DNA of 48,063 nucleotides. Source: Micromonospora maritima (GTDB taxonomy: Bacteria > Actinomycetota > Actinomycetes > Mycobacteriales > Micromonosporaceae). The notes under the pieces were generated by a model, which saw nothing but the letters and a program-made list of their open reading frames with translations, had not been told where the DNA came from and searched no databases. The stretch covers positions 1 through 48,063 of the forward strand of contig NZ_CADEAU010000004.1 in NCBI RefSeq assembly GCF_902825405.1, given 5' to 3'. Shown piece after piece: positions 1 to 21,717 of this stretch (positions are counted from its first letter, which is position 1; the number at the start of each line of letters is the position of its first letter). Both the position numbers and the translations under genes were made by a program.

Positions 1-630
1 ACCCGCGCCGTCGAGCCCGCCGGCGGCGTCGGGGCGCTCGCCGGACGGGTGGGGCTCCCCGGACCGCTCGACCCGGCCGGCGAGCCCGACCCGCGTCGTC
101 CCGAACTCCGGCGGCGGGAAGTCGTCGTCGAACGGCCGGTCGTCGAACGTGGCCGGGGCCTGCGCGTCGGGCACCGGTTCGGTCGCCTCGCCGTGCACCC
201 GCTGCTCCGCGTCCGCGTCCTCGACCGAGCTGGTGGCGGCGCGGGGCTGGTTGCGCAGGAAGCGTGCCCGGCCCCGGGACAGGTCGTGCCCGACCGCGAC
301 CGCCTCCAGCTCGTAGAGCGTGCGGTGGGTGCCGGCCTCGTCGGTCCAGTCCCGGGTGTAGAGGCGGCCGGCGACGATCACCGGGTCCCCGACCGCCACC
401 GACGCGGCCACCCCCTCGGCCAGCCGACGCCAGCAGTTGACCCGTACGCGCAGGCTGTTGCCGTCGACCCAGCGGCCGCTGTCGCGGTCGAGCCGGCGGG
501 CGGTCGAGGCGACCTTGAAGTTGGCCACCAGTGTTCCGCTCTGGGTCGTCCGGCGCCATTCCGGCGCGGTCAGCACATTGCCGACGATCGTGGGGGATGG
601 CGAACACCCATCAGGCTCGCCGTCCCCCAC
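1..630 (-). CDS. ssb: single-stranded DNA-binding protein, prophage-split hybrid, 3' end off window
   Basis: The frame is open from a GTG at 630 to base 1 and runs off the left edge. From about residue 15 it reads as an SSB OB-fold: TIVGNVLTAPEWRR, then LVANFKVASTARR, WVDGNSLRVRVNCWRR and DPVIVAGRLYTRDW, followed by a disordered acidic tail. SSBs coat single-stranded DNA in replication and repair. It is not next to rpsF/rpsR, so it may be a second paralogue. The first ~13 codons (VGDGEPDGCSPSP) are phage sequence, not SSB. The true start, MFDTYVTI behind GGAGGGGCG, lies beyond the prophage at 46242-46265, and joining the two at the shared GATCGTG core restores MFDTYVTIVGNV. No clear ribosome binding site precedes GTG 630, but it lies 4 nt after the stop of the phage gene at 635, so coupled translation is possible. 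Function of the hybrid is uncertain. Confidence 0.85.
   Translation of the reverse strand, partial: MGDGEPDGCSPSPTIVGNVLTAPEWRRTTQSGTLVANFKVASTARRLDRDSGRWVDGNSLRVRVNCWRRLAEGVAASVAVGDPVIVAGRLYTRDWTDEAGTHRTLYELEAVAVGHDLSRGRARFLRNQPRAATSSVEDADAEQRVHGEATEPVPDAQAPATFDDRPFDDDFPPPEFGTTRVGLAGRVERSGEPHPSGERPDAAGGLDGAG
586..592. other. attL core, left prophage junction
   Basis: GATCGTG is the 7-bp sequence shared with 46242-46248. To its left is ssb coding sequence (codons GTC GGC AAT on the minus strand). To its right the ssb similarity stops abruptly. Joining the left host flank to the right host flank across one copy restores an uninterrupted ssb start. A short core of this kind fits a serine integrase. 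The exact crossover dinucleotide cannot be read from sequence alone. Confidence 0.85.
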
Positions 631-634
631 GAGG

Positions 635-1123
635 CTAGTTGTGCTGGCTGCGGCCTTGCTGCTCGCCCCCGTTGAGCTTGCGTTTGATGCTGCGCAGGGC
701 GGCGAGGGTGTCGGGGTCGACGCCGGTGGGCAGGGGCACCGTGTCGTGTTCCCCGCCGACGGCGACCATCCGGGGCTGTTCGGTGCGGGCCCGGCCGGGC
801 AGGTAGGTGACGCTCGGCGGGGTATCGCGGACGGTCTTCTCGATGCGCTCGGCGATCTGGTCGGCTTTCCGGTCGAGTTCGGCGGTGATGAAACGCCGGA
901 GTCTGCCCTCGGCGCAGCGGGTCATCCAGCCGCAGGCCCCGACAGTGAACACGGATACGGCGATGGCGTAGGCGCCCCGGTTGATGTCTATCGGGGTGGT
1001 GGTGTCGAGAACGTACGCGATGAGTGCAGCGCTGATGGCGCCGGCGGAGATGACGATGAACGGGATGCCGCGCACGCTGTCGCGGTCGTCGGTGCTGGTG
1101 GACGCGTCTCGGGTGCCGCACAT
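635..1123 (-). CDS. two-helix membrane protein at prophage left end
   Basis: A 162-aa protein. The ATG at 1123 has GGAG about 9 nt upstream and was preferred over an upstream in-frame start. A short polar N-terminus is followed by two hydrophobic segments (about residues 17-42 and 49-68) with a short loop. A long cytoplasmic-looking tail follows, with a charged helix (ITAELDRKADQIAERIEK) and a Pro-rich region. No family is recognised. It is the last phage gene before attL and its TAG stop ends 4 nt before the GTG that reopens ssb, so it may drive ssb expression. It follows the secreted Pro-rich gene and could belong to the transfer or surface module. Confidence 0.7.
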   Translation of the reverse strand: MCGTRDASTSTDDRDSVRGIPFIVISAGAISAALIAYVLDTTTPIDINRGAYAIAVSVFTVGACGWMTRCAEGRLRRFITAELDRKADQIAERIEKTVRDTPPSVTYLPGRARTEQPRMVAVGGEHDTVPLPTGVDPDTLAALRSIKRKLNGGEQQGRSQHN

Positions 1124-1268
1124 GGGTTGTTCACTCCGATCGAGTTGTGCTTGGGACGGGGATCGGAGGCGGGTGTTGCGGGTTCCGCCCTGCCTCCTGC
1201 CGGGGCCCGGGTTGCGGTCGGGTGCCGGCGCGGTGCCCACCGGTCGGGGTGGTGGGCAGGGGGCGGGC

Positions 1269-2501
1269 TCAGGCGGGGCCGGGCTCGATCGCGGTGTGCC
1301 GTGAGGCGGGCAGGTGGGATCGGGCGCGCAGGTGGTGCAGCTGGTCGAGCGTCGGCTGGGCGAGCATCGACGTGACGTCGCCGAGCGGCTGCCCGTGCTG
1401 CTGGCCGGTGTTGCTGGTGGTGGTGGCGTCGGTGCAGGCGCTGCCGTTGTCGTGCTGGCCGGGTTTCGGGCATCCGGGCGCCGACTTCACGCCGCCGCGG
1501 AGGCCGCGTTTGGTGAGCCGGTGCCGTTCGAGCACGGTCCGGTAGTCGACGTGCGTCTCCGCGCCCTGGTCGGCGGGGTCGGTGCAGTCGGGTGGCGGCA
1601 GGTTCTCGAGGGCGGCGCCGGGCATCTCGCCGACGGTGGCCTCTGTCGGCTGGTCGACGGCTTCGGCGATGGTGGGGCCGATGGGGATGGGCAGCGCGAC
1701 CGGCGTCGGGGTGGGTGCCGCGGGGGTGGTGTAGGGCTGGCCGGTGGGGGGTTGGGCGGTGTCGTCGTCGGCGCCGGGCAGGGTGGCCGGGTTGGTGGCG
1801 GGGAGGGTGACGACGATGTCGACGACCGGCGTCTTCACCTCGAGGGCGGGTGCCGGTTCGGTCGGCGCCGGGGTCGGCTCCGTGCCGAGGTCGACCTCGA
1901 CGGGCGGCACAACCTCGTCGACCACCTCGACGACGTCTTCGACCGCCTGGCAGATGCCGTCAACGAGCGGGACGTCGCACAACGGTGTTGTCGGCGTCGT
2001 CGGCTCGGCGGGGGTGGTCGGCTCGGGCGCCGGGGTGTCGGCGGGCTCCGGGGTCGGCTCGGCCTGGTCGGTGTCGCGGTCCTCGACCGGCGTGGTCGGC
2101 TCGGGCTGCGGGTCGGCGGGCTTCGACGGCTCGGGCTCCGGGTCGGGTTCGCGGGTCGGCTCGGGCTTCGGCTCAGGCTTGCTGCTCGGCTCCGGGTCCG
2201 GCTCCGCCGGCGGCGGGGTGGGCTTGTCGGCAGGCTCGTCCTTCGCCGGCTCCGGCTCGGGCTTCGGCTTCGGTGCTTCGACCTTGACCGGCGCGGCGTC
2301 GACCACCGCGTCGAGCGCCTTGCGGACGGGCTTGCCGGGCAGACCGCGGTCGAGCACACCCCCCGGGCGCTCGGCCACGGCCGCCGGCTTGTCGTCCGCG
2401 CGGGCGGTGTTGGTGGTGGCGTCGTAGGCGGCGAGGCCGGCGATGCCGACGGTGGTGAAGGCGGCGGCCATGAGCCAGCGGCGGATCGTCGTTCGGGTCA
2501 T
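1269..2501 (-). CDS. secreted Pro/Glu-rich repeat protein
   Basis: A 410-aa protein. The ATG at 2501 is chosen because GGGGGAGGTGACG lies just before it and a signal peptide starts there: MTRTTIRRW, then the hydrophobic stretch LMAAAFTTVGIAGLAA, then a polar region. Residues ~65-185 are an irregular array of PEP, PDPEP and PTP units alternating with Lys/Asp, typical of a stiff wall-spanning linker. Next comes LCDVPLVDGICQAVEDVVEVVDEVV with two Cys, then more Pro-rich sequence and a His/Arg-rich end with two further Cys. It has no LPXTG motif or transmembrane anchor. Family unknown; a cell-surface or secreted role is inferred, perhaps in mating contact or surface alteration of the lysogen. It lies between the FtsK module and attL. 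Confidence 0.75.
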   Translation of the reverse strand: MTRTTIRRWLMAAAFTTVGIAGLAAYDATTNTARADDKPAAVAERPGGVLDRGLPGKPVRKALDAVVDAAPVKVEAPKPKPEPEPAKDEPADKPTPPPAEPDPEPSSKPEPKPEPTREPDPEPEPSKPADPQPEPTTPVEDRDTDQAEPTPEPADTPAPEPTTPAEPTTPTTPLCDVPLVDGICQAVEDVVEVVDEVVPPVEVDLGTEPTPAPTEPAPALEVKTPVVDIVVTLPATNPATLPGADDDTAQPPTGQPYTTPAAPTPTPVALPIPIGPTIAEAVDQPTEATVGEMPGAALENLPPPDCTDPADQGAETHVDYRTVLERHRLTKRGLRGGVKSAPGCPKPGQHDNGSACTDATTTSNTGQQHGQPLGDVTSMLAQPTLDQLHHLRARSHLPASRHTAIEPGPA

Positions 2502-2858
2502 GTCGTCACCTCCCCCCACGGTGGTGATCTTCCCGGTCTGATCGGTGGGACTTGTGTGGGTGACTGGCTGGCTGCTCAACCGGTCGCCGTGGTTGTCGTC
2601 AGGCAAGGAGTGTCGCGTGCCTGGCCGTGAGCTGTACATCGTCGTATAGGTGGGCGGGATTCGCACCCTCTGGTGATCGCGCGTGTCCGTACGGTCAGCA
2701 TGATCACGGTTGATGTGTCCGTTTTTGTGGCAGCTACTCGAGGGTTGGTTTCGCACCATCCGCCAGATCGTCTGAGTAGATCGTCATCGGGCGTTGAGTA
2801 GATCCCGGGCAAGCGTAAGGCCCCGGTGCGACGACCAGGGCCCAACGCGCGTGCGAGG
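2502..2858. other. intergenic region between surface gene and FtsK module
   Basis: A 357-base stretch with no convincing gene. It must hold the leader and promoter of the leftward gene starting at 2501 and the end of transcription from the gene ending at 2859. The 10-bp direct repeat TGAGTAGATC occurs at 2773-2782 and 2795-2804, 22 bp apart, a possible protein-binding site. I see no clear GC stem with a T-run. Confidence 0.5.
2773..2804. repeat. direct repeat TGAGTAGATC x2
   Basis: Two exact 10-bp copies (2773-2782, 2795-2804) spaced 22 bp start to start, about two helical turns, in a non-coding stretch upstream of the secreted-protein gene. The geometry suits a dimeric regulator, but the function is unknown. 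Confidence 0.5.
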
Positions 2859-3119
2859 TCAGGACGCCGCCTTGCGGACCCGGGCGAACCGGTTCCACAC
2901 GCGGCGCCCAATCCGGAGCCGGCGGCCGGGCGAGCGCCGGCACCACCAGCAGTCGCGGAACACCTTGCCGTCGTCGCGGTAGTGGTTCCCGGTGCCCTTG
3001 CAACACCAGCACGGCGCCCACGGCCGCCAGCGCCAGGACGCCACCTTGACGGCGATGAAGACGACCACCGCGAGGGTGGCCAACACCCACCCAGGTGCCG
3101 AGGCGATCAGGTCTCTCAC
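2859..3119 (-). CDS. single-pass membrane protein with CxxC zinc-type pairs
   Basis: An 86-aa protein from the GTG at 3119, preceded by GGGAGGGCCT; an in-frame start at 3173 is possible but has no such site. The N-terminus (VRDLIASAPGWVLATLAVVV) forms one transmembrane helix. A Trp-rich basic domain follows with CWCC and CWWC pairs around KGTGNHYRDDGKVFRD, resembling a DnaJ-type zinc ribbon (CxxCxGxG). The C-terminus is Arg-rich. It lies directly downstream of the FtsK gene and is probably part of the transfer-like module, but the exact role is unknown. Confidence 0.65.
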   Translation of the reverse strand: MRDLIASAPGWVLATLAVVVFIAVKVASWRWRPWAPCWCCKGTGNHYRDDGKVFRDCWWCRRSPGRRLRIGRRVWNRFARVRKAAS

Positions 3120-3204
3120 AGGCCCTCCCAGGGCGGTTTCGAGGGGTCGGGCCTGCGGGCGTGCTATCCGCAATCCCGCAGGTCACAGCGCCTTTAGGGC
3201 GCTA

Positions 3205-3232
3205 GCGGGCGCGCTATCGATAGCGCGCCCGC
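3205..3232. repeat. perfect 28-bp palindrome downstream of ftsK-like gene
   Basis: The arm GCGGGCGCGCTATC (3205-3218) is followed with no spacer by its exact reverse complement (3219-3232). It lies 6 bp beyond the FtsK-like stop at 3239. Further GCTATC copies occur at 3163-3168 and 3235-3240. There is no T-run and no loop, so it is a poor intrinsic terminator and could be a protein-binding site. It also lies upstream of the gene starting at 3119. Confidence 0.75.
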
Positions 3233-3238
3233 CCGCTA

Positions 3239-5335
3239 TCAGTCCGCGATCTCGCGGGGCTTCGCGCCGGCGTCGAGAGCGGCCTGGAGGGTGTCCAGCC
3301 GCACCCCGTACTTCGTCCACCCGCGGCCCTCCGGGTGCGGGTTGCCGGTCCACATCCCGTCGAGCTTGCGGTGGATGCTGACCGTCTTCACGCCGGTGGC
3401 CTTCAGCGCGGCGCCCAGCGTAGTGACCGTCCAGTCGCCGTAGATTTCCGGACGCAACCGCTGGAGCCGGTCGACGATCAGCTCCGACCACAGGGCCTCC
3501 TCGCTGCCCGGCCAGACGGCGCGGATGTCGGCCAGCAGGTTGTACGCCTTCACCTTCGGGGCGGGTTCGTCCAGGTCAGGCATGGTGCCGGCGCCCTGCC
3601 GGTGCCGGATGGCGTGCTCGACGATGCGCTTCGCCGCCGGCCCGTCGACCTTGTACGTGCGGCACGACACCGGCTTGCCGAGGCCCACCAGCCAGCCCCA
3701 GCCGTAGTCCTCGTCACCGAACATCGTGGCGCGGATGCCCTGCTTGTACATGCTGGTGCCCAGCACCATGTCGTTCTCGACCTGGCCGGTGACCCGCAGG
3801 CAGAACCGCACGCCGGCGTTCGCGGACACGCCCTTGGGCAGGGAGTCCTTGTCGGGACGCTGGGTGGCCAGCAGCAGGATGATGCCGAGCGCCCGGCCCA
3901 GCTTGATGACCTTCTCGGCCAGGTCGCCGGCCTCCTTGCCGAACTCGCCGTGCGCGAACAGCTCCTGGCACTCGTCGATGAACGCGACAACCGGGTGAAG
4001 GCCCAGGTCAGGCATGCTGGCCAGCTCGCGGGTGACCTTGTTCTCGGGAGCCTTCCCGGCGCGGGCCATCCGCTTGATGACGGCGCCGCGGCGGACGCAT
4101 TCAGTGCGCAGCCAGCGCAGCATCTCCAGCGCCTCTTCAACGGTGTCGTCGTCGGCGCCGGACCCGAACTTCGTGCAGATGGGCTCCAGCATGTCGAGGT
4201 CGCCGGTGCCCTTCAGTTCGTAGCCGATCAGCTCGGCTGTCGGGTCGAGGGAGGCGGCGAGCAGCGGCAGGCGCAGAGAGAACGTCTTCCCGGCACCGGG
4301 CATGGCCCCGAACAGCCAGTTGCGGTACATCAGCGACCCGTTGATCGGACGCAGCCGCGGGTCGGCTGCGAACGGGAACGGCTTGAAGATGTCCACCTTG
4401 GCACCCTTGAGCAGCGGCCACGGCGGCTGCTTCATCGCACTGGCGGGCTGGTAGCCCTGCCAGATGGCGAGCCGGCCCGGGTGGGCCTTCGGCATGGTCT
4501 CCGGCCACACCTGGTCGACCGGCACCCGCAGCCCGGACGCGAGCCGGGAGCGGCGCTCGATGACGTCGACAGCGTCCACGCCGGGCGGCAGGTCGACGAC
4601 GGCGAGCTGGCCGGGCCCGTCGCGGTGGATTTCCTGCGGGAACGTGATCTGCTCGGGCTCCTTCAGTCCGGCGATGCCGCACGACAGGATCGCCGAGCGG
4701 ACCAGCTCGGCGGTGAGCCGCCGGTACTGCGGCTTCACGACAGCGGGGCTGACGATCGGCTTGTCGGCGGGCCGCCCGTACCGCGCCAGCAGCGGCACGA
4801 CAACCGCCGCGACGACGCCGCTGTACCAGCCGGGCGACACCGCCAGCACCACGCCGCCAACGAGCACGCCGGTGGCGCCTGCGCCGAGGACGACACCGCG
4901 GTACAGGCGTGTCGCCTTCGCCTCGCGGTGCAACTTCATCCACGCGTCGGGGTCGTTGCGGGTGGCAGCCTCCTGGCGTAGCGGTTCCTGTTCGAGGACG
5001 AGCCACCACTTGAGGAGCTTCCCGACGAGGCGGATGGCACCCCAGCACGCCCACAGGAGGGCGAGGGGGACGTACCAGAGCGGGGTGCGTACCGCGTGGT
5101 AGGCGGCGACGTGCCCGGCCCGGCCGGCGGTCTGCTTGACGGTGGGGGCGAGGTTTCCCTTGCGCAGGCCTGCGGGCACGATCGGGCGCCGCTCGGCGGG
5201 CTTGCCGACGATGGCAGCGAACACGGGCTTGCGTTCAGGCTGGTCGACGGGCGGGCCTTCGGGGGCGGGGGTGATGTCGACGGTCTCGTGGTCGTCGTCG
5301 TCCGGGTGCCGGGGGTGCGGGATGTGGTCGGTCAT
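3239..5335 (-). CDS. FtsK/SpoIIIE-family DNA translocase (TraB-like)
   Basis: A 698-aa ATP-driven double-stranded DNA pump. A disordered acidic N-terminus is followed by hydrophobic segments at ~88-108 and ~148-188, a mid domain, and then the motor. Walker A is GAMPGAGKT (343-351), Walker B is VVAFIDE (449-455) and the sensor-like ATQRPD is at 490-495. The C-terminal ~100 residues form a small helical domain (LRPEIYGDWTVTTLGAALKA), plausibly the DNA-recognising winged helix. In actinomycete conjugative elements this family (TraB, TraSA) moves double-stranded DNA between mycelial cells. Its neighbour at 5341 is a DUF2637/SpdB-like gene, the usual AICE pairing. A full-length motor inside a complete siphoviral prophage is unusual. 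Host-type FtsK is unlikely because it lacks the four-helix N-terminus and the long linker. Confidence 0.88.
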   Translation of the reverse strand: MTDHIPHPRHPDDDDHETVDITPAPEGPPVDQPERKPVFAAIVGKPAERRPIVPAGLRKGNLAPTVKQTAGRAGHVAAYHAVRTPLWYVPLALLWACWGAIRLVGKLLKWWLVLEQEPLRQEAATRNDPDAWMKLHREAKATRLYRGVVLGAGATGVLVGGVVLAVSPGWYSGVVAAVVVPLLARYGRPADKPIVSPAVVKPQYRRLTAELVRSAILSCGIAGLKEPEQITFPQEIHRDGPGQLAVVDLPPGVDAVDVIERRSRLASGLRVPVDQVWPETMPKAHPGRLAIWQGYQPASAMKQPPWPLLKGAKVDIFKPFPFAADPRLRPINGSLMYRNWLFGAMPGAGKTFSLRLPLLAASLDPTAELIGYELKGTGDLDMLEPICTKFGSGADDDTVEEALEMLRWLRTECVRRGAVIKRMARAGKAPENKVTRELASMPDLGLHPVVAFIDECQELFAHGEFGKEAGDLAEKVIKLGRALGIILLLATQRPDKDSLPKGVSANAGVRFCLRVTGQVENDMVLGTSMYKQGIRATMFGDEDYGWGWLVGLGKPVSCRTYKVDGPAAKRIVEHAIRHRQGAGTMPDLDEPAPKVKAYNLLADIRAVWPGSEEALWSELIVDRLQRLRPEIYGDWTVTTLGAALKATGVKTVSIHRKLDGMWTGNPHPEGRGWTKYGVRLDTLQAALDAGAKPREIAD

Positions 5336-5340
5336 GGTGG

Positions 5341-6771
5341 TCAGTTCTCCTGGCTGGCGGGCTTGGGCCAGTGCCGCTGCACGGTGCGCTCGCTGACGCC
5401 GAGCTTCTTGGCGACCTGCTCCTGCGTCATGTCGGGGTGCTTGGCGCGCAGCGCGGCGACCCGCTCGGCGGTGGTCTGTCGGGTCTTGGTGTCGGGGCGG
5501 GTGGCGACCCGTCGGGTGATGCGCGTGGCGGGTGCGGTGGCGGCCACGGTGGCGGGCTGCCTGTCGGGCGCCCTGTCGGGCTCGGTGTCGGGTGTCGGGT
5601 GCGCCACGATGGCAGCCGGTGTCGGGTCAGGCTGTCGGGGCGATGGCGGGTTGACGGCGGCCGGCGTGTCGGGTCGGGTGGCGGGTTCGGAGGTCGCCAC
5701 GACGAGCGCCTCCAGGTCGTCACCGTGACGCGCCGGCGGCGCCGCGATGGCGACCGGCGGAAGGTCGAGCGGCATCGTCGCCGCCAGAGCGCGCACCCGC
5801 TCCGTCGCCCGGCGGGTGTCGGCCAGCGCGTTGTCGATGGCGGCCTGCTCGTCGACCGTCATCTGGCCGACCAGCGGCCGACCGGCGAGCAGCCTCACCG
5901 CCGCCCGCACCCGGCCCGGCGCCGGACGATCCGCCCGTCGCTCGGCCAGCTTGCGCCGGCGGTCCCGGTTGTAGCCCTCCCACGCCCGCCGCGGGTCACG
6001 CTCGTAGTGGTCGATGCTCCACCGCTTCGCCAGCCACGCCCGCACCGGGAACGCCCGACGCCGCTGCGGGGAGAACTCCACCCCACCCTCGTCGATCAGG
6101 TCGGCGTCCTCGGCCAGCAGCTGCACGTGCTGGGCCCGCCGGGTGTGCAGACCCCACAGCCACGGCGACAGCAGCGACAGCAACGCGAACGCCACCGCCG
6201 CCGCCGTCGGCGCCATGCCCTCGCCGGCGAAGTGCGCGTAGTTGATGGCGGCCACCACGGCGGCGATCGTCCACGACGCGCGGCGCAGCGAAGCGGCGGT
6301 GGCGTGTGCCTTCAGCAGCAGCGCGTCGTGGGCGTGCCACTGCACGTACACCGCCACCGACTCCATGGCGATGGCGAACGCGACCGCGAACGTCAGCTTC
6401 GACGCCGCGTTCCACGCCTCGGGGGCGATGTGTTCGTAGGCGTAGGCGGCCTGCGCGTAGGCGGCACCGCCGTTGATGAGCAGCAGCGGGAGCACCGGGC
6501 GCAGCTTCGCCGTGAACTCGGCCCGCGATGCCCGACGCCGGTCGCGTCGCTCGGCCTGCTCGGCGCGGCGGGCCAGGTCGCGGCGGCGCTTCTCCTGCTC
6601 GTCGGCGATGGCCTGCTGCCGGGTGAACTCGGCGTCGGCGGCCTGCCGCTCGCGCTGGATCTGCGCCTCTACGCGGACGCGCTCCAGGTCGGCGCGGGCC
6701 TGCTCCCGGGCGGCCTCGGCCCGGGCTCTCTCCAGCTCCGGGTCCGCCGGAGCGCGTCGGAAGGTGATCAT
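5341..6771 (-). CDS. DUF2637 (SpdB-like) membrane protein with coiled coil and C-terminal HTH
   Basis: A 476-aa protein whose start overlaps the upstream stop (ATGA). Residues ~8-88 are a highly charged Ala/Arg/Glu coiled coil. Residues ~92-200 hold about four hydrophobic segments (LPLLLINGGAAYAQAAYA, LTFAVAFAIAMESVAVYV, ASWTIAAVVAAINYAHFAG, AAAVAFALLSLLSPWLWGL), the DUF2637 pattern. A long Pro/Thr-rich region leads to a C-terminal helix-turn-helix (~435-470: MTQEQVAKKLGVSERTVQRHW). DUF2637 proteins often neighbour TraB in AICEs and are linked to intramycelial plasmid spreading. The stop is 5 nt before the FtsK-like start, so the two are co-translated. The membrane-plus-HTH layout suggests DNA tethering. 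Confidence 0.82.
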   Translation of the reverse strand: MITFRRAPADPELERARAEAAREQARADLERVRVEAQIQRERQAADAEFTRQQAIADEQEKRRRDLARRAEQAERRDRRRASRAEFTAKLRPVLPLLLINGGAAYAQAAYAYEHIAPEAWNAASKLTFAVAFAIAMESVAVYVQWHAHDALLLKAHATAASLRRASWTIAAVVAAINYAHFAGEGMAPTAAAVAFALLSLLSPWLWGLHTRRAQHVQLLAEDADLIDEGGVEFSPQRRRAFPVRAWLAKRWSIDHYERDPRRAWEGYNRDRRRKLAERRADRPAPGRVRAAVRLLAGRPLVGQMTVDEQAAIDNALADTRRATERVRALAATMPLDLPPVAIAAPPARHGDDLEALVVATSEPATRPDTPAAVNPPSPRQPDPTPAAIVAHPTPDTEPDRAPDRQPATVAATAPATRITRRVATRPDTKTRQTTAERVAALRAKHPDMTQEQVAKKLGVSERTVQRHWPKPASQEN

Positions 6772-7085
6772 CGGTTCGCGGGCTCCTTGATGCGGAGGTC
6801 GGCGAGGGTCATGTCGGACGTGTGCTGCGGCAGCTCACCCGCCGGGCGCCGGGCGGGCACCACGGGGCGGAGCATCCACCGGTGTCGGGCGGTGCGGTAG
6901 CCGCGGCGGGCCAGCCGCCACGCACGGGGCGTCGCCCACTTCCCGGCGAGGATCAGCAGCACCAGGGCGAGCTGCACGGCGCGGGCGGCGGTCTTCAGCA
7001 GCCACAGCAGCATCTGCCAGGACAGGGCGGCGAGGAACGTGCCGGTGCCGCCGTTGCAGCCGCACTTGCCGTTGATCGTGCACAT
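6768..7085 (-). CDS. small Spd-like membrane protein with Cys-rich N-terminus
   Basis: A 105-aa protein whose ATG overlaps the stop of the 39-aa gene upstream. The N-terminus MCTINGKCGCNGG has three Cys, followed by one or two hydrophobic helices (TFLAALSWQMLLWLLK and AVQLALVLLILAG). An Arg-rich cytoplasmic region (AWRLARRGYRTARHRWMLRP) and a polar tail follow. No family is recognised. Its place in a run of five small genes feeding into DUF2637 and FtsK by 4-nt overlaps matches the spd gene strings of actinomycete plasmids. Confidence 0.75.
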   Translation of the reverse strand: MCTINGKCGCNGGTGTFLAALSWQMLLWLLKTAARAVQLALVLLILAGKWATPRAWRLARRGYRTARHRWMLRPVVPARRPAGELPQHTSDMTLADLRIKEPANR

Positions 7086-7204
7086 CAGCGGGCCGCCTTC
7101 GTGCAGGTCTTGACGTGCTCCTTCATGGCCTTCGTCAGCGCCTGCGGCGTGGTGCCGTCCGGGATGACGAGCACGCCGCACGCCTTGCAGGTCCAGAGGG
7201 TCAT
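7085..7204 (-). CDS. 39-aa zinc-finger-like mini-protein
   Basis: The reading frame MTLWTCKACGVLVIPDG runs on to KAMKEHVKTCTKAAR, a CxxC plus HxxxC arrangement that would bind one zinc ion. The start overlaps the previous stop (ATGA at 7201-7204) and its stop overlaps the next start (7085), which argues strongly for translation despite the length. Function unknown. Such micro zinc fingers occur among plasmid-transfer and phage genes and may bind DNA or mediate assembly. Confidence 0.65.
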   Translation of the reverse strand: MTLWTCKACGVLVIPDGTTPQALTKAMKEHVKTCTKAAR

Positions 7205-7449
7205 CGGGCCAGCTCCTTCCGGGCGGGCTGCGTCCGGCGCTGCTGCTGCGGCACCTGCCCGGCGGCCTGCGACGGCGCGGACGCGTCCGCACCCACCAGC
7301 AGGGACACCCCGGCGACCAGGAACGGGGCGACACCGGCGGCCTGCAACAGCAGCCCCGGCTCCCCGGCGGGCAAGTTCACGGCGACCTCCCACACGGCGG
7401 TGGTCAGACCGGCGCACACGACGTGGGCGGCGATGGTGCGGGCGTTCAT
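7201..7449 (-). CDS. small membrane protein (Spd-like)
   Basis: An 82-aa protein. The ATG at 7449 has GGAGG about 8 nt upstream. Two hydrophobic stretches (about residues 5-24, TIAAHVVCAGLTTAVWEVAV, and 31-52, LLLQAAGVAPFLVAGVSLLVG) predict a helical hairpin, followed by a Gln/Arg-rich cytoplasmic tail. The start overlaps the upstream stop (ATGA) and the stop overlaps the 39-aa gene. No family is recognised; membership of the transfer-type membrane gene string is inferred from position and topology. Confidence 0.7.
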   Translation of the reverse strand: MNARTIAAHVVCAGLTTAVWEVAVNLPAGEPGLLLQAAGVAPFLVAGVSLLVGADASAPSQAAGQVPQQQRRTQPARKELAR

Positions 7450-7670
7450 CGGATCGACCTCCGGAGAGCGATGCGGGCGGTCAGGGCCGAGCGGCGCAGC
7501 GTGCGCAGCGCGTGGTCCTCGACGTCGTTGGTGGGCTGGGTGGGCCGGTCGAGCAGTCGCACGATCTGGTACAGCTGCTGGTCGACGACCTCGATGGCGC
7601 GGGCGGCCTGGGCGATGCGGTCGGCGGCGGTCTGCGGCGGCGCGGGACGCAGGCGGTGGATCAGGCTCAC
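7446..7670 (-). CDS. small soluble alpha-helical protein
   Basis: A 74-aa protein from a GTG that overlaps the upstream stop by 4 nt. It is predicted to be mostly helical, with a central amphipathic helix (AARAIEVVDQQLYQIVRLL) and a basic C-terminus (TLRRSALTARIALRRSIR). It has no Cys, no membrane segment and no recognised family. Its value is positional: it is co-translated within the string of small genes leading to the DUF2637 and FtsK-like genes. Confidence 0.65.
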   Translation of the reverse strand: MSLIHRLRPAPPQTAADRIAQAARAIEVVDQQLYQIVRLLDRPTQPTNDVEDHALRTLRRSALTARIALRRSIR

Positions 7671-7837
7671 GACACACCGCCGATCACGCCGAGGTTGGTC
7701 AGCAGCGCACCCACGGCGAGGGGGGTCGCGGCGCCGACGATGCGGAACACGGCCCGGTTGATGCGGGCGGTGAGCCCGTCGGCGGGGCCGAGCATGCCCA
7801 GCGCGAGGATCAGGGCGGTGACGATGAGGGCGAGCAT
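7667..7837 (-). CDS. 56-aa two-helix membrane peptide
   Basis: The reading frame begins MLALIVTALILALGMLG and continues through a short polar turn (PADGLTARINRA) into a second hydrophobic segment (IVGAATPLAVGALLTNLGVIGG). It is framed by 4-nt overlaps on both sides: the start overlaps the stop of the gene at 7837, and the stop overlaps the GTG at 7670. That arrangement makes it a credible gene despite its size. It resembles the tiny Spd membrane proteins of mycelial plasmids, an inference from topology and context. Confidence 0.65.
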   Translation of the reverse strand: MLALIVTALILALGMLGPADGLTARINRAVFRIVGAATPLAVGALLTNLGVIGGVS

Positions 7838-8064
7838 CACCGGTCACCACCCTGCGCGACCAGCACGAGACGGAAGCCGGAGCCGGAGCGGTACCGGTCG
7901 GGGTTGGTGCGGATCGCGGCGCGGAGAACGCGCCATCCGCCGTCCGTGCCCTCGGCGGTGTGGATGGGCTTGGCGGTCAAGTCGACGTTCATCAGGCCCT
8001 CGCAGTCGGGGGCGGTGCGAGCGTCGACGATCCGCTCCTCGATGCAGTAGGTGATGATGTCCAT
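7837..8064 (-). CDS. hypothetical 75-aa protein heading the transfer-like operon
   Basis: The ATG at 8064 follows GGAGG at a good distance (GGAGGTCCGACCC). A soluble alpha/beta-looking protein with two Cys near the start (ITYCIEERIVDARTAPDCEG) and a C-terminal strand-rich part (GWRVLRAAIRTNPDRYRSG, FRLVLVAQ). No family is recognised. It is the first gene of the tightly overlapping leftward set running to the FtsK-like gene, and a terminator-like hairpin lies just upstream at 8093-8129. Confidence 0.65.
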   Translation of the reverse strand: MDIITYCIEERIVDARTAPDCEGLMNVDLTAKPIHTAEGTDGGWRVLRAAIRTNPDRYRSGSGFRLVLVAQGGDR

Positions 8065-8092
8065 GGGTCGGACCTCCTAGCGGTCTGATCAA

Positions 8093-8129
8093 GGCCCCCG
8101 GCCAGCGGTAGGGTCGCCAGCCGGGGGCC
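8093..8129 (-). terminator. hairpin between 8140 gene and transfer operon
   Basis: The stem GGCCCCCGGC (8093-8102) pairs with GCCGGGGGCC (8120-8129) around a 17-nt loop. It follows the stop of the small gene at 8140 and precedes the operon starting at 8064, so it probably isolates the transfer-like operon from upstream transcription. Confidence 0.7.
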
Positions 8130-8139
8130 GCTTTCGTGG

Positions 8140-8277
8140 CTACTTGCCCTTCGGGCGCTCGCTGCCGTGCGCCTCCCGTGGCAGCCCGCACTGGCCGAGC
8201 CGACCGGGCGCCACCTCCGTGACCTCCTTGCACTCCCGGGTGAACCGGCCGTCGAACGCGTGGTCGGGGCTGCTCAT
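8140..8277 (-). CDS. hypothetical 45-aa protein
   Basis: A small polar protein (MSSPDHAFDGRFTREC, then two short helices and a Lys-rich end) with two Cys. The ATG at 8277 has GGAGG 8 nt upstream, the main reason for calling it; a longer in-frame start at 8337 has no such site. It is divergent from the plus-strand gene at 8385 and ends just before a terminator hairpin, so it forms a one-gene unit. Function unknown. Confidence 0.55.
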   Translation of the reverse strand: MSSPDHAFDGRFTRECKEVTEVAPGRLGQCGLPREAHGSERPKGK

Positions 8278-8384
8278 CTGGGTGGCCTCCTCGGTCTCGC
8301 TTGCGTGTTCGTGTTTCTGATGAGACGCTAACCCCACCGCAGGGCATGTGTCAACTGAGACAAGGAGCTGATAGCGTGACCGCC

Positions 8385-8606
8385 GTGGTTCGCCCCAAGA
8401 CCGTCTACGACGACGAGCAGCAACGACTCCTGAACGTCGCCGTGGAGAAGGCCCGCGCCGCCGAGGTGGCCGAAGAGGAGGCGTGGCAGGCCATCAAGGC
8501 GGCCCGCGACGCGAAGGTGCTCGACACCGACCTGTGCGGCGAGGAAACACCGCCGAGGTTCAACCGGGCCACCCTCAACCGGAAGTTCGGCCCCCGCTCA
8601 GCCTGA
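8385..8606 (+). CDS. small helical moron protein, leaderless start
   Basis: A 73-aa plus-strand protein against the leftward genes. TAGCGT at 8372-8377 lies 7 nt before GTG 8385, the same spacing as the other plus-strand genes here, favouring a leaderless start; the in-frame GTG at 8376, with AAGGAG upstream, is the alternative. The protein is a long charged helix (QQRLLNVAVEKARAAEVAEEE, then AWQAIKAARDAKVL) with a basic C-terminus. No family is known. It is followed by a bidirectional hairpin at 8624. Probably expressed in the lysogen. Confidence 0.6.
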   Translation: MVRPKTVYDDEQQRLLNVAVEKARAAEVAEEEAWQAIKAARDAKVLDTDLCGEETPPRFNRATLNRKFGPRSA

Positions 8607-8623
8607 CCCCCAGACAGCACGAA

Positions 8624-8663
8624 AGCGGCCCCGCCAGAGCGCAATCGCTCCAGCGGGGCCGCT
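8624..8663. terminator. bidirectional hairpin
   Basis: AGCGGCCCCGC (8624-8634) pairs with GCGGGGCCGCT (8653-8663), an 11-bp stem, flanked by GAAA on the left and TGTCTG on the right. It separates the 73-aa gene from the lipoprotein gene. Confidence 0.75.
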
Positions 8664-8681
8664 GTCTGTGCGCCCGTTCGC

Positions 8682-8687
8682 TACCGT
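8682..8687 (+). promoter_or_regulatory. -10-like TACCGT of lipoprotein gene
   Basis: TACCGT (TAnnnT) ends 7 nt before the ATG at 8695 and there is no ribosome binding site between. This matches the boxes before 8385, 9587, 13062, 44236 and the host gene at 47040, pointing to leaderless transcription. Confidence 0.5.
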
Positions 8688-8694
8688 GCCGGCC

Positions 8695-9105
8695 ATGACC
8701 CGTTCCCGCACCCTCACCGCGGCCGTCCTGGTCGCCTTCGCTGCGTCCGGCTGCTCCAGCGACCGTGAGCCGGCCGCCGCGCCCACCAGCAGCCCGCCCG
8801 CCACCACTGCGGCGGCGTCCCCGTCGGCGAGCGGCCCGGACGTGTACGCGGTGAAGGCGTGCAAGCGGGCCGCGGACGCCCTCGATGCCGGCGGGAACAC
8901 CCTCGACGAGATGGCGGCAGCCGCCTACGAGGCGCAGCAGTCCAGCGAGGAGAAGCTCGTGCGGGCGGGGGCGGCGTTCAGGGAGCGGGTGAGTGACGCG
9001 CAGGCCGCTCAGGGGGCCAGCGACGAGGCGGTGATGGAGGCGAACGCGGCAGCCGCCGCGCTGACGTTCACGGGCACGTGCGCTGAGGTCGGTCTGGTGA
9101 ACTGA
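8695..9105 (+). CDS. small secreted lipoprotein (moron)
   Basis: A 136-aa protein with a classic lipoprotein signal: MTRSRTLTAAVLVAFAASGC, lipobox AASGC with the acylated Cys at ~20. A Ser/Thr/Pro/Ala linker (to ~50) leads to a compact helical domain with two Cys (AVKACKRAADALDAGG and FTGTCAEVGL) that could form a disulfide. ATG 8695 is preferred because the signal peptide begins there. Plus strand, own promoter box and hairpins on both sides mark an independently expressed lysogen gene. Surface lipoproteins of temperate phages often cause superinfection exclusion; here that is only a hypothesis. Confidence 0.75.
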   Translation: MTRSRTLTAAVLVAFAASGCSSDREPAAAPTSSPPATTAAASPSASGPDVYAVKACKRAADALDAGGNTLDEMAAAAYEAQQSSEEKLVRAGAAFRERVSDAQAAQGASDEAVMEANAAAAALTFTGTCAEVGLVN

Positions 9106-9115
9106 CCCGGACATG

Positions 9116-9159
9116 CAGAAGCGGGCCCCGTCTCCGGTTGGAGGCGGGGCCCGCTTCTG
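9116..9159. terminator. strong bidirectional terminator after lipoprotein and lysis genes
   Basis: A 15-bp perfect stem: CAGAAGCGGGCCCCG (9116-9130) with its complement at 9145-9159 and a 14-nt loop. It lies between the converging lipoprotein (ends 9105) and holin (ends 9173) genes, so it can end both transcripts. Confidence 0.85.
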
Positions 9160-9172
9160 TGCAGCGTGGGGG

Positions 9173-9532
9173 TCAGTCGGCGGTCACCGGGGTCTTCGAC
9201 CCGATGCCGTTGTCCGACACGGCCGGCGCGAACGCCACCCCGGCGGCGGTCAGCCCTGCCAGCACCAGCACGATCCACTCCCCCGAGTCGAGGCCGCCGA
9301 GCACGGTGGTGGCGAGGGCCTGGAGGACGGCGAGGACGACCGCGACGGCGGTCTTGCCCCACCGGTACTCCGGGGCGATGGGGACGAGGTAGACGCCGGC
9401 GGCGGTGGCGGCGGCGATGCCGATCTGCACCCACTCCTCCGGGTCGATGTGGTTGTCGCCGCCGAGGGCGGCGTAGAGGGCGACGAGGACGGCGCCCGCC
9501 AGGGAGGCGAAGGCCTTGCCGTACTTCTCCAT
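9173..9532 (-). CDS. phage holin
   Basis: A 119-aa membrane protein from the ATG at 9532, which has AGGAGACCTG directly before it. Hydrophobic segments: FASLAGAVLVALYAALGG (~8-25), VQIGIAAATAAGVYLVPI (~35-52), TAVAVVLAVLQALATTVL (~61-78) and EWIVLVLAGLTAAGVAFA (~85-102), ending in a polar tail. The length and the GKAFASLAG/NHIDPEEW pattern match holins of actinobacterial siphoviruses, which permeabilise the membrane to release the lysin. It is the last leftward late gene, followed by a terminator at 9116. Confidence 0.78.
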   Translation of the reverse strand: MEKYGKAFASLAGAVLVALYAALGGDNHIDPEEWVQIGIAAATAAGVYLVPIAPEYRWGKTAVAVVLAVLQALATTVLGGLDSGEWIVLVLAGLTAAGVAFAPAVSDNGIGSKTPVTAD

Positions 9533-9586
9533 CAGGTCTCCTGGGGGATACGTGTCGGGCCGGCGGGCACGGTAGCGTCGCCGGTT

Positions 9587-9847
9587 GTGGCTGGGATGTC
9601 GCAGCTCCGCGAGGCGGGCTGGTTGTACGGGCCGTCCGACCCGTGGTTGCCGTTGGCGCTGGTCAGGTTGTTTGAGCACCGGGACGGCAGCGGCCGGTGG
9701 GAGGTGCGCCTGAACTCGCCCGCGCATGAGCCGTCGCAGGTGGCCGTGTTCGACGGCGAGGAGCCTGCGCGGGCGGAGTTGGGGCGGATCTACGCCGACG
9801 GTGAGCAGGACGGGCAGTGGCGGATCCGCCGGCCCGACGCCTACTAG
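9587..9847 (+). CDS. hypothetical 86-aa moron protein
   Basis: Plus-strand gene between the holin and the next late gene. TAGCGT at 9573-9578 precedes GTG 9587 by 8 nt; ATG 9596 is an alternative start. A soluble protein with aromatic and acidic residues (YGPSDPWLPLALVRLFEHRDGSGRWEVRLNS split by turns) and a conserved-looking end, WRIRRPDAY. Its TAG interlocks with the stop of the convergent gene (CTAG at 9844-9847). No family is recognised. Convergent placement and its own box indicate independent expression in the lysogen. Confidence 0.6.
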   Translation: MAGMSQLREAGWLYGPSDPWLPLALVRLFEHRDGSGRWEVRLNSPAHEPSQVAVFDGEEPARAELGRIYADGEQDGQWRIRRPDAY

Positions 9848-10233
9848 TCGGGTTTGCGGGATCCGGCGCCCACCGGTTCGGTGGTGACCATCTTCCGCAG
9901 CTGCTCGACCTTCGCGTCGGGGTGCAGGATCGCCGCCCGCCACCGGCGCAGGGTGGCCGTCAACCCGGCCACGCTGTCGGACAGCTCACCGAGGTTGTCC
10001 TTCGTGGTGCGGACCTCGGTCTCCAGCTCCCGCACCCGCAGCTTCAACGGCTCCAACAGGGTGAGCGCGGTGTCGGTGAGCACGTCGGCGGCGTCGGCCC
10101 GGAACTTTCTGCGTTGCAGCAGCAGACCGATCAGCGCGGCCAGGCCCCCGCCCCCACCGAGCACCCCCACCACCGTGACGAGGATCGACGTCCACGCCGG
10201 CCCCGACGGCGGCGCATCTGCCGCCCACATCAC
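9844..10233 (-). CDS. membrane-anchored coiled-coil protein of lysis cassette
   Basis: A 129-aa protein with a single N-terminal transmembrane helix (SILVTVVGVLGGGGGLAALI, ~16-37), then a basic stretch and a coiled coil (~45-110: LEPLKLRVRELETEV, DNLGELSDSVAGLTATLRR). This topology is common for second membrane proteins next to holins (LydB- or Rz-like roles). The ATG at 10233 overlaps the upstream stop at 10230. Function is inferred from position: between a four-helix membrane protein and the holin, downstream of the endolysin. Confidence 0.6.
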   Translation of the reverse strand: MMWAADAPPSGPAWTSILVTVVGVLGGGGGLAALIGLLLQRRKFRADAADVLTDTALTLLEPLKLRVRELETEVRTTKDNLGELSDSVAGLTATLRRWRAAILHPDAKVEQLRKMVTTEPVGAGSRKPD

Positions 10234-10688
10234 CGGTCACGCTCCACCAGTAGCGGCACGTCTGCCATCACCCCCGACTCGGCGGCCCGGGCAACCCGCA
10301 TGAGGTCCCGGCCGATCTGACCGACCCGCCACCACGCACCCACCGCCACACCCCCCACGAACGCGCCGGCGGCGGTGGCGGACAGGCCGGCGATGACGGC
10401 GAGCGCGATGGCGTACATGGTGGTGACGGAGCCGAGGACAGCGACGCCGAGCAGCTCCACACCCAGGGCCGTGCTGAGCTGCCCTTTCCAGGTGACGCCG
10501 ACCAGGCCGACGACACCGGCGACGATCAGCCCGACCTCCCAGCCGGCCTGCACGATCGTCGGCATGGCGGACACGACCGAGGGGGGCCGGTACTCGGTGG
10601 CCAGCAGCGCGATCCCGCAGGCGAGGGCGGCGATGAGCACGGCCACCTCGAACGGGTGCCGGCCGGTGGTGATCTGAACCGGGCGCAC
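10230..10688 (-). CDS. four-helix membrane protein of lysis cassette
   Basis: A 152-aa protein whose start overlaps the endolysin stop at 10688. Four hydrophobic segments are visible: EVAVLIAALACGIALLA, VGLIVAGVVGLVGV, LLGVAVLGSVTTMYAIALAV and ATAAGAFVGGVAVGAWW, then an Arg-rich C-terminus. It could be a second holin or an anti-holin, since two or three membrane proteins after an endolysin are common in actinophages. No specific family is recognised. Confidence 0.6.
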   Translation of the reverse strand: MRPVQITTGRHPFEVAVLIAALACGIALLATEYRPPSVVSAMPTIVQAGWEVGLIVAGVVGLVGVTWKGQLSTALGVELLGVAVLGSVTTMYAIALAVIAGLSATAAGAFVGGVAVGAWWRVGQIGRDLMRVARAAESGVMADVPLLVERDR

Positions 10689-11551
10689 TACCGGACCAGA
10701 CGGGCGGCGAGTTCGCTGGCAACCTGATCGACGGTGGCGCCGCCGGCCGGGCCGGGCTCACCCCGGTCACCCTTCGGCCCCTGCGGACCAGCCGGACCCT
10801 GCGGGCCCGGATCGCCCTTCGGCCCGGGCGTCGCGCCCGCGAACCGCCTGATGAACAGCACCTGCACCCGGATGTACGAGTCGGCGTCGTAGACCCGTCC
10901 GTCCGACACGACGCCGAGGGACGCCTCGGCCTTCTTCAGCGCGGCGGCGGTCCCGTCGCCGTACGCCCCGTCGATGGTTCCCGGGGTGAACCCGATGTTG
11001 TGGAGGGCGTACTGGAGGGCGCGGACGTTCTCGCCCCGGTCGCCGTACTTGCAGAACATCTGCGTGATCCCTTCTGCCGGGGCGGGGCCGATCTGCCAGT
11101 CGGCGCCGCTGTCGGCGGCGGCGGTGTGCACGGTGCTGACGTGGATGTGCGTGTCGTGCGGGTCGGAGCCGCTGTACGAGGACCACCGCCACCCGTAGTT
11201 GGGGCCGGTGATCCGCCGGTTGGAGATGATGTAGCCGATCCGCGGGTCCCTGCTGGCCCGGAGCTGCTCGGCGACCTTGTGCGCGTCGAGGCCGAGGTTG
11301 GGGGCGTGGGGGAAGTCCCTCGCGCAGACGACCGCGGTGGCGCCGAGCGCGCTGTAGAAGTGCGGGTAGTGGTCGGAGGTCGAGGAGTGGGCGCTGTCGG
11401 CGATCGACCCCCACGACGCCGCCGACGTGGCCGGCGGCACCGCCCTCGGGTAGGTCGCCCGGATCTGCTCGTTCAGCCGATCCAGCGAGCGGACCGTCCG
11501 CCACGGCTGGCCCTTGCTCCACATGCGGATCTCCCTCGCCATCAGCGGCAC
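10688..11551 (-). CDS. endolysin: M15-like peptidase, peptidoglycan-binding domain and collagen-like tail
   Basis: A 287-aa protein from GTG 11551 with AGGAGG 5 nt upstream. Residues ~40-140 look like a zinc DD-peptidase: H55, SDH (59-61), RDF with D79 and HIH (135-137) could supply the metal and catalytic residues. Residues ~165-215 fit a peptidoglycan-binding domain 1 ([30 protein letters not shown]). Residues ~243-271 are collagen-like Gly-X-Y triplets ([13 protein letters not shown]...), unusual in an endolysin, followed by a short helix. It lies between a glycosidase-like tail gene and membrane proteins. Cell-wall cleavage is well supported; the exact bond is inferred. A virion-associated lysin is the alternative. 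Confidence 0.78.
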
Positions 11552-11560
11552 CGTGGCCTC

Positions 11561-13027: not shown

Positions 13028-13061
13028 GGGCGTGTGCCTCCCGGGCTATAGAGTTGTGGCC

Positions 13062-13289
13062 GTGAATGACCTGGTGAAGGACCCAGCGCCCGCAGTCGGG
13101 CAGGTGTGGCGAGGCGTGGAACACGGCAGCCTGTTCCGGGTGCTGCTGGTGCACGATGGGAAGGTGACCTTCCAGGTCATGCACCAGGGCAATCCGCAGA
13201 ACGAGGACTGGCTGCCGGTCGGGCAGATCCACAGCCTCCCGCTCGAGCGGTGGCTCAACGGCTACCTGGAATTCGGGTGGCTGACCTGA
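13062..13289 (+). CDS. hypothetical 75-aa moron protein
   Basis: A plus-strand gene inside the leftward tail cluster. TAGAGT at 13049-13054 precedes GTG 13062 by 7 nt, the leaderless pattern; GTG 13056 is two codons upstream. The protein looks like a small beta barrel (VGQVWRGVEHGSLFRVLLV, KVTFQVMHQG, WLPVGQIHSLPLERW), similar in feel to SH3-like DUFs, but no family is recognised. It is convergent with the tail gene ending at 13294. Probably a moron expressed from the prophage. Confidence 0.62.
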   Translation: MNDLVKDPAPAVGQVWRGVEHGSLFRVLLVHDGKVTFQVMHQGNPQNEDWLPVGQIHSLPLERWLNGYLEFGWLT

Positions 13290-13293
13290 TCCG

Positions 13294-14031: not shown

Positions 14032-14047
14032 GCGAATCGAATCCCTC

Positions 14048-16158: not shown

Positions 16159-16161
16159 CCG

Positions 16162-20067: not shown

Positions 20068-20411
20068 GACCTACCCCCGCCCCGCGGCGCGACCGCGCCG
20101 TTCTTCACCGCCGCCGGCACCAGATGCGGCTTCGGGTCGTGGTCCTCACCGCCGGCCTCGACCAGCCACCCGTACCAGGCCGCCGGACCCCAGCCGACAA
20201 GGAACGTCACCGACCGCGCCTGCCGGTCGTACACCCGCTCCACCTGGATGTTGCGGCGCAGCGTCCCGGTCTCCTTCGGCGCCAGGCGGCGGGCGTCCCG
20301 CCGGATCGCGTTCGCGACCTGCCGGACCTGCTTCGCCACCTCCGGAATCTGGGAGATGGCGGCGAGGACCTCGGGGCGCATGCGCCCACGGTCAGCCAGC
20401 ATCGCCGCCAC
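20064..20411 (-). CDS. HK97 gp10-like protein
   Basis: A 115-aa protein: helical N-terminus (RPEVLAAISQIPEVAKQVRQ), then ARRLAPKETGTLRRNIQVERVY, a motif common in HK97 gp10-type tail-completion proteins (A..aP.dTG.Lr.si), then VGWGPAAWYGWLVEAGG and a C-terminal PHLVPAA. It lies unusually between the tail chaperone and the tape measure rather than next to the tail terminator. Likely a head-tail joining or tail-completion factor. Confidence 0.7.
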   Translation of the reverse strand: MAAMLADRGRMRPEVLAAISQIPEVAKQVRQVANAIRRDARRLAPKETGTLRRNIQVERVYDRQARSVTFLVGWGPAAWYGWLVEAGGEDHDPKPHLVPAAVKNGAVAPRGGGRS

Positions 20412-20419
20412 CCCCTGAT

Positions 20420-21117: not shown

Positions 21118-21120
21118 CCG

Positions 21121-21714: not shown

Positions 21715-21717
21715 GGC

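Follow-up and report, generated by a model that had tools for sequence, protein, structure and literature searches.

A putative TraB-clt transfer module resident in an integrated siphoviral prophage of Micromonospora maritima

The stretch of DNA considered here, hereafter the window, is the entire contig C4 (48,063 bp) of a Micromonospora maritima draft genome of 6.23 Mb in 986 contigs, and it carries an integrated siphoviral prophage of about 45.7 kb (583..46248). Inside this prophage lies a nine-gene operon on the minus strand, running from 8064 to 2859, which encodes six tiny open reading frames (ORFs), an SpdB2-like protein, a TraB/FtsK-type membrane double-stranded DNA translocase and a Cys-rich membrane protein; directly behind the translocase (ATPase) gene there is a cluster of repeats resembling clt, the cis-acting locus of transfer of actinomycete conjugative systems. 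Judging from sequence comparison and structural modelling, we put at roughly two in three the probability that the prophage carries a resident TraB-clt conjugation or spreading module, which would move double-stranded phage DNA through or between the hyphae of its host. Viruses of this kind may be able to spread without making particles.

The clt-like site (3163..3240, minus strand) consists of four half-sites GATAGC/GCTATC, located at 3163, 3213, 3219 and 3235, the last of which overlaps the stop codon of the ATPase gene, and of a perfect 28-bp palindrome (3205-3232) lying 6 bp past that stop codon. The palindrome was spotted by direct reading of the DNA behind the ATPase gene, and it is shared with a related phage in IMG/VR, record G201. 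GATAGC occurs three times in direct and once in inverted orientation within 90 bp, and none of 100 simulated sequences reached three. In the window the palindrome is the sole perfect inverted repeat with an arm of at least 11 and a loop of at most 8 nucleotides, and the arms found in ten Markov sequences measured at most 12. A similar arrangement is known from the Streptomyces venezuelae plasmid pSVH1, whose TraB recognition sequence is given as GACCCGGA (PMC5133688). Used as a positive control, pSVH1 carries GACCCGGA at 8158, 8180, 8212 and 8233 and inverted at 8249, behind the end of traB at 8142, with just two further copies elsewhere on the plasmid. For plasmid pWTY27, clt has been reported to span 16 bp of traA and 159 bp of adjoining DNA (PMC3583192). 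The window likewise has what is expected of a TraB system, namely clustered, putatively cis-acting repeats next to the traB-type gene.

Many TraB lineages, in conjugative elements and phages alike, were found to have a half-site of their own (GCTAG, GCTATC, GGTAGCG, GGTTTCG). All 39 copies of CGAAACCGGTTTCG counted in 38 viral loci (652 kb) stand at most 120 bp behind the ATPase gene, and there are zero copies in 41 other viral loci and 79 genome loci; these 38 loci are related, with a median pairwise identity of 84% and four clusters at 70%. For GCTAG[GAC][TGC]CTAGC, 125 of the 130 copies occupy the same place behind the ATPase gene. Long palindromes as such were rejected as a general measure, as arms of at least 8 occur in 44/79 genome loci and 293/2558 control genes but only in 19/79 viral loci. 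Since they are hardly enriched behind viral ATPases, a repeat-cluster count was adopted instead, defined as at least four copies of one 6-mer behind a gene and counted blind. Such a cluster was present behind the ATPase in 37/42 terminase-bearing phage contigs compared with 50/705 other genes (about 7%), and in 69/79 genome loci compared with 83/926 other genes. After collapse at 75% identity it remained in 14/21 phage and 38/47 other representatives, and because the loci are related, 14/21 is a fairer figure than 37/42. Two other ways of locating a clt were discarded: the densest cluster of 8-10-mers anywhere in the phage led to low-complexity repeats in a Pro-rich gene and to repeats near 36 kb, and clustered 7-9-mers common to the window and G201 were uninformative.

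As an observation apart from the prophage, half-site clusters, often palindromic, lie directly behind TraB-type genes of actinomycete conjugative elements generally (loci L045-L113 and L193-L271), and they are candidate clt sites. A simple rule follows, that a half-site cluster just behind a TraB-type gene, often a palindromic one, predicts the transfer site of an actinomycete integrative and conjugative element (AICE). For pSAM2 no transfer site had been described, according to the text of Choufa et al. (2022, PMC9513070).

The ATPase itself (3239..5335, minus strand, 698 aa) had been read as FtsK/TraB-like by the initial annotation, and profile and homology searches bear this out. It matches the FtsK-like family PHROG_1358 (E 2.8e-22) and, in tblastn, 32 plasmid records, including that of pSVH1 with its proven TraB (E 8e-21, 29% identity over 55% of the protein). 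Walker A (343-351) and Walker B (D454-E455) are conserved in the alignment, and N-terminal membrane helices are indicated by both hydropathy and the structural model, as would be expected of an FtsK motor. The model, computed from a 60-sequence alignment with a mean pLDDT (predicted local distance difference test) of 86.6, contains long N-terminal helices at 62-187, a motor core and winged-helix-like elements at about 600-690, where a C-terminal winged helix is predicted; a single-sequence fold with a pLDDT of 40 was discarded.

Upstream of the ATPase gene, which starts 5 bp beyond it, lies the gene of the 476-aa SpdB2-like protein (5341..6771, minus strand), composed of a charged, coiled-coil-like N-terminus, a membrane domain and a C-terminal helix-turn-helix (HTH_23, E 1.4e-5 in Pfam). 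The initial annotation had labelled it DUF2637, and this label has to be withdrawn. The protein has no match to PF10935 even at E<=1, and hhalign gives a probability of at most 1.5 against two true DUF2637 proteins, while PF10935 is matched by proteins of NBC_00562 and of the Pseudonocardia alni plasmid pPaSha2. Against SpdB2 of pSVH1, hhalign gives a probability of 87 (E 3.7e-6, 52 columns), a weak match that nevertheless stands above the controls (five shuffles at most 0.7, four other phage proteins at most 0.3). By this profile comparison the protein is SpdB2-like; at 1e-3 nothing in the plasmid collection matches it. The predicted string of tiny overlapping ORFs is in place, comprising six minus-strand frames of 39-105 aa in which successive frames share 1-7 bp. 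In order of transcription these are a 75-aa frame that opens the operon (7837..8064), a 57-aa frame with two predicted transmembrane segments (7667..7840), frames of 75 aa (7446..7673) and 82 aa (7201..7449), a 39-aa CxxC mini-protein (7085..7204) and a 105-aa membrane protein (6768..7085), whose gene overlaps that of the SpdB2-like protein by 4 bp and which has homologs in two other TraB phages (70% and 50%). Outside the prophage, the genome holds two more TraB-type genes, on contigs C54 and C62, and over 36 aa the CxxC mini-protein shares 75% identity with an ORF located upstream of the one on C54. Behind the ATPase gene, the one-transmembrane Cys-rich protein (2859..3119, minus strand, 86 aa) has homologs in 81 compared loci, some of which overlap each other, and in 67 of the 68 loci where the ATPase could be placed these lie within 600 bp behind it.

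The proposed mechanism may be outlined as follows. The serine integrase of the prophage would excise the 45.7-kb element as circular double-stranded DNA, and the membrane-anchored ATPase would use its predicted C-terminal winged helix to bind the GATAGC/palindrome cluster, in the way that TraB of pSVH1 binds clt. An ATPase hexamer, together with the SpdB2-like protein and the tiny membrane proteins, would then pump the phage genome, still double-stranded and unprocessed, through septa or points of hyphal contact, and the genome would integrate or replicate in the next compartment or mycelium, with virion production as a separate route. A narrower version of this scheme holds that the module serves solely intramycelial spread, carrying phage DNA through the septal cross-walls of one mycelium and never to another. 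In such modules the SpdB2-like and tiny membrane genes make up the part concerned with spreading, and Spd proteins are described in a review as working with TraB at vegetative septa. In addition, a tblastn search with the ATPase matched none of 50,697 isolate-phage records at 1e-5, although 1897 of the isolate records carry related terminases, with phages of Mycobacterium, Gordonia, Microbacterium and Arthrobacter in the lead. These four genera are mostly non-mycelial hosts. A clt-like site and the full TraB architecture are, however, also required for inter-mycelial transfer, and the sequence separates neither from the other; a restriction to one mycelium seems to us doubtful, though it deserves to be kept in mind.

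A second alternative would make the ATPase a packaging or segregation motor, active in packaging, dimer resolution or partition, with the palindrome as its loading or stability site, similar to the sps of SpdA2. The FtsK fold is compatible with such a role, many phage copies of the gene stand just upstream of the terminase, and a weak terminase-family match as well as A32-type packaging ATPases turned up in the searches. Moreover, a palindrome on pIJ101 that is bound by SpdA2 has been reported to affect stability and not transfer (PMC4170104). On the other side, the phage already encodes a terminase, the ATPase begins with long helices of membrane type and is accompanied by Spd-like membrane genes, and the site matches the position of clt in pSVH1. 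In a Foldseek search of the PDB, FtsK motor domains lead (E 6e-14), followed by the conjugation protein TcpA (E 4e-12), and no terminase appears among the 50 best matches; in a library of viral structures the best matches are unnamed or FtsK-like. A packaging motor as the principal interpretation was rejected on account of the phage's own terminase and this fold search. With that terminase and an FtsK/TcpA fold, the ATPase does not turn out as in the case that the initial annotation had named as fatal to its proposal, a protein unrelated to TraB with a packaging-linked role. The wider packaging or segregation alternative we regard as improbable.

The setting of the module was established from the ends of the prophage. 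In related genomes, ssb (minus strand) and raiA (plus strand) are divergent neighbours with a few hundred bp between them; in the window the distance is about 45.7 kb. Positions 27-592 and 46239-47000 of the window align to one unbroken ssb-raiA region in relatives, with a 10-bp overlap in L052 and L050; in the empty site of G019, for example, the matches fall at 6294590-6295174 and 6295417-6295884. The left attachment core (583..592) interrupts the 5' coding end of host ssb, and the right core (46239..46248) adjoins the serine integrase (44496..46223, plus strand, Pfam match). Because the ends are fixed by empty sites, the transfer module (2859-8064) lies inside the integrated element and is not an adjoining AICE. 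Between the attachment sites there is a full set of siphoviral genes, as had been claimed, all on the minus strand: the terminase large subunit (28965..30476, PHROG_9, E 2.1e-66), which lies 23.6 kb from the ATPase gene on the same strand, head protease and portal (26460..28945, profile matches), the major capsid protein (25154..26059, PHROG_1650, E 9.7e-82), the tail tape measure protein (17095..20067, profile match) and a lysis region of membrane proteins and a lysin-like protein (9173..11551, profile matches). Head-tail, Dit, exonuclease and RuvC-like genes were also recognised. The Prim-Pol replication protein, likewise anticipated, is encoded at 38098..38709 (minus strand, PF09250, E 2.1e-35), and the prophage has the combination by which AICEs are recognised, an integrase (PF07508 or PF00589) with a Prim-Pol replication gene. 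A DUF3987 helicase (36167..38431 as called, minus strand) shares 33% identity over 486 aa with the replication protein encoded on a TraB plasmid, and since its called 5' end overlaps Prim-Pol, its true start is probably later. The view of the region as an AICE-type transfer module in a real prophage is accordingly retained on the grounds of homology, fold, operon make-up, ends and clt-like site, and only its DUF2637 component has been dropped.

The co-occurrence of such a module with phage genes, for which the initial annotation had suggested a survey of prophages, does recur in other phages. Homologs of the ATPase (E 1e-20) were found in 56 of the 201 genomes searched, which include that of the window, and in four of the 56 (G000, which is the window's own genome, G008, G011 and G018) a PHROG_9 terminase lies 24-27 kb from the ATPase on the same strand. 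The remaining genomes with an ATPase have no nearby terminase or portal by PHROG_9, PHROG_2 or the portal profile; portal PF04860 and terminase PHROG_2 added no co-located case, co-location being read by eye from the tables. Locus L091 (in G096) has a tape-measure-like match, with no terminase found. In record G201 the terminase lies 19 kb from the ATPase on the same strand. The circular record pPaSha2 (CP052773, 41,938 bp) carries capsid, portal, protease and terminase genes together with a DUF2637-FtsK pair near a holin. In IMG/VR, 131 contigs encode relatives of the ATPase, of which 80 were kept, 79 of these being new loci. The 45 new contigs of at least 30 kb were tested for terminase, leaving out the 34/79 that are shorter, and PHROG_9 was present in 40/45 and PHROG_9 or PHROG_2 in 42/45. 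As IMG/VR selects viral contigs, weight is placed on position and context and not on the presence of terminase. Positions were scored against a single terminase per record, although PHROG_2 matches a second place in some of them. Measured in this way, the ATPase precedes the terminase by 1.5-5.4 kb in 25/42 contigs, with both genes on one strand, and follows it by 21-36 kb, a distance like that in the window, in 10/42, eight of these ten having the two genes on opposite strands; in the other 7/42 it lies elsewhere. An ORF with several transmembrane segments occurs at most 3 kb upstream of the ATPase in 30/36 loci compared with 4/94 control genes, six of the 42 loci having too little upstream DNA to be counted.

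In a tree of 68 representatives, 21 phage rows require 12 label changes, of which well-supported branches force 10, and the phage rows are more clustered than in any of 500 shuffles; the label 'phage' denotes a terminase on the same record, and rows with other labels may include phages not put to that test. Near-copies were collapsed at 75% for this tree, and it excludes 37 IMG/VR loci lacking a terminase call, 34 of them untested and 3 found to have none. An earlier tree of 71 rows, made without the 125-aa fragment L112, required 5 changes for 6 phage rows. Because the ATPases of conjugative elements and phages interleave, exchange took place repeatedly, modules moving between actinomycete conjugative elements and siphophages several times, with some lineages then kept in phages. 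The ATPase and its membrane partner also swap, as G201 combines a 90% identical ATPase with a membrane partner of a type met in conjugative contexts, and the G008 phage combines a membrane partner 55% identical to the SpdB2-like protein with an ATPase of only 29% identity.

The same interleaving could be taken to mean that the phage makes no use of the module and carries it along as a passenger, an AICE or plasmid that inserted into the prophage or next to it. Such a passenger would also fit the lack of a nearby terminase for most homologs in relatives and the presence, in the G011 phage, of a NUDIX gene with relatives near ATPases in 17 other contexts. Several results stand against it. The module lies between the attachment sites, and a tandem AICE beside the phage is ruled out by the empty site, G201 and pPaSha2. 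Compared with the 90% identical copy in G201, the ATPase gene has a dN of 0.071 and a dS of 0.427 (dN/dS about 0.17, NG86), with 190 of the 281 changes at third codon positions, and is under purifying selection. The window/G201 copy forms a phage-only clade with L114 and L115 (support 97), and the position 1.5-5.4 kb before the terminase recurs in the contigs counted above. Finally, the small divergent gene upstream of the operon (8301..8606, plus strand) has homologs only in phage or IMG/VR loci, among the loci compared. An unused passenger is quite improbable on this evidence. Least credible is a module directed at competitors, occupying transfer sites or excluding AICEs and superinfecting phages; in its favour are the TraB-type genes on C54 and C62 and the Pif-type NUDIX immunity reported in AICEs (PMC3218068), yet no NUDIX match was found with Pfam among the scanned module proteins, and neither a conserved motor nor a cis site is necessary for exclusion.

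Returning to the resident TraB-clt module, a number of observations speak against it and account for the reserve with which it is put forward. The window's own 6-mer count is 3, rising to 4 only when the copy that overlaps the stop codon is included, and palindromes with arms of at least 12 are not enriched behind viral ATPases (5/79 loci compared with 112/2558 other genes). pPaSha2 and the G008 phage have no recognised half-site behind the ATPase, although both score 4 in the blind 6-mer count, and the palindrome could alternatively be a terminator, an operator or a stability site. The ATPase fails the cut-off of the Pfam profile FtsK_SpoIIIE (PF01580; E 0.0046, 16.9 bits, cut-off 24), the profile used for AICEs in PMC3218068; this cut-off is also missed by the homologs of a plasmid (L013), pPaSha2 (L015) and two phages (L114, L040), and is reached by pSVH1 TraB, L168 and L037. 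The terminase match mentioned above has an E of 0.003, and two giant-virus A32-type packaging ATPases stand lower in the viral structure library (E 5e-5 and 1e-3). Most ATPase homologs in relatives lie outside such phages, the four genomes with a co-located terminase being few among 56, and in IMG/VR, where contigs are preselected as viral, a terminase is to be expected. In the isolate-phage collection Gilgamesh is the sole clear match: at a relaxed limit it appears with E 2e-4 under two accessions, followed by four other records at E 4 to 7, and three other phage-linked ATPases at 1e-3 retrieved Gilgamesh only, plus one short match in a fecal phage. Finally, no GntR match was found among the 26 window proteins scanned with Pfam. 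GntR is the usual family of tra repressors, and in the sister phages of G008 and G018 a GntR gene follows the ATPase gene at about 1 kb.

A broader proposal, which we advance tentatively and at somewhat less than even odds, is that conjugative temperate phages form a class widespread among mycelial actinomycetes, siphophages with their own TraB-Spd-clt set and a lineage-specific palindromic site, that they would spread both as virions and as naked double-stranded DNA through and between hyphae, and that their near absence from isolate collections has kept them from notice. If this is true, the line between phage and conjugative element would be crossed routinely in mycelial bacteria, and the passage of a phage genome across the septa of a multicellular host would become testable.

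A precedent is already known in pZL12, a Streptomyces plasmid-phage (Zhong et al., 2010) that transfers by conjugation with one major tra gene and two neighbours, as described in papers that cite it (PMC3583192, PMC4487206). As far as those citing papers tell, pZL12 joins phage particle genes to a capacity for conjugation, which is what is proposed here for the window element; pZL12 is described as an autonomous plasmid, whereas the element in the window is a siphovirus integrated into the chromosome, which has a serine integrase and a clt-like site. pSVH1 shares with the window a homologous motor, an SpdB2-like partner and repeats directly behind traB, and differs in its distant TraB, in its half-site (GACCCGGA instead of GATAGC) and in having no annotated virion genes. 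AICEs of the Prim-Pol type likewise have an integrase, Prim-Pol/DUF3987 replication genes, an Spd/Tra operon and a palindromic site behind traB. The window departs from them by its virion and lysis genes between the replication and transfer modules, its serine integrase and its site at ssb. pPaSha2 resembles the window in combining phage head genes with a transfer ATPase, which is 44% identical, but it is an annotated plasmid with a circular record where the window copy is integrated, it has a true DUF2637 and no recognised clt-like half-site, and its module is oriented opposite to the terminase. No description of TraB-clt modules as a common feature of integrated siphophages was found in the literature searched, mostly open papers, and the main text of a 2023 survey of actinobacterial prophages contains neither FtsK nor 'conjug' (PMC10023795).

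Some further features of the prophage and its site deserve mention. The attachment site (583-594) lies within the first ssb codons, and the SSB start and promoter are replaced by the prophage. SSB homology in most relatives begins at about residue 13 of the window ORF (1-591, minus strand), and the host SSB would carry an N-terminus given by the phage. The G011 phage occupies the identical ssb-raiA site, and a further strain has an 11.4-kb insertion within ssb itself (G021:C1:5608198-5619601); more than one element may target this locus. Besides the serine integrase, the prophage encodes a second recombinase, of tyrosine type, in its middle (32844-33938, minus strand), and an ECF-like (extracytoplasmic function) sigma factor (40621-41595, minus strand); phage L168 also has a gene matching sigma-70 region 2 upstream of its ATPase. 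Between the DUF3987 helicase and the RuvC-like gene, repeated GATGTTGAG/CTCAACATC iterons fill 36027-36155, where the called frame looks non-coding, and this stretch is a likely replication origin. The lysin-like protein (10688-11551, minus strand) has a collagen-like Gly-Pro repeat towards its C-terminus, below the Pfam cut-off. A long Pro-rich protein, probably secreted, is encoded behind the transfer module, at the left prophage end (1269-2501, minus strand), and the genes that occupy its place in other phages differ.

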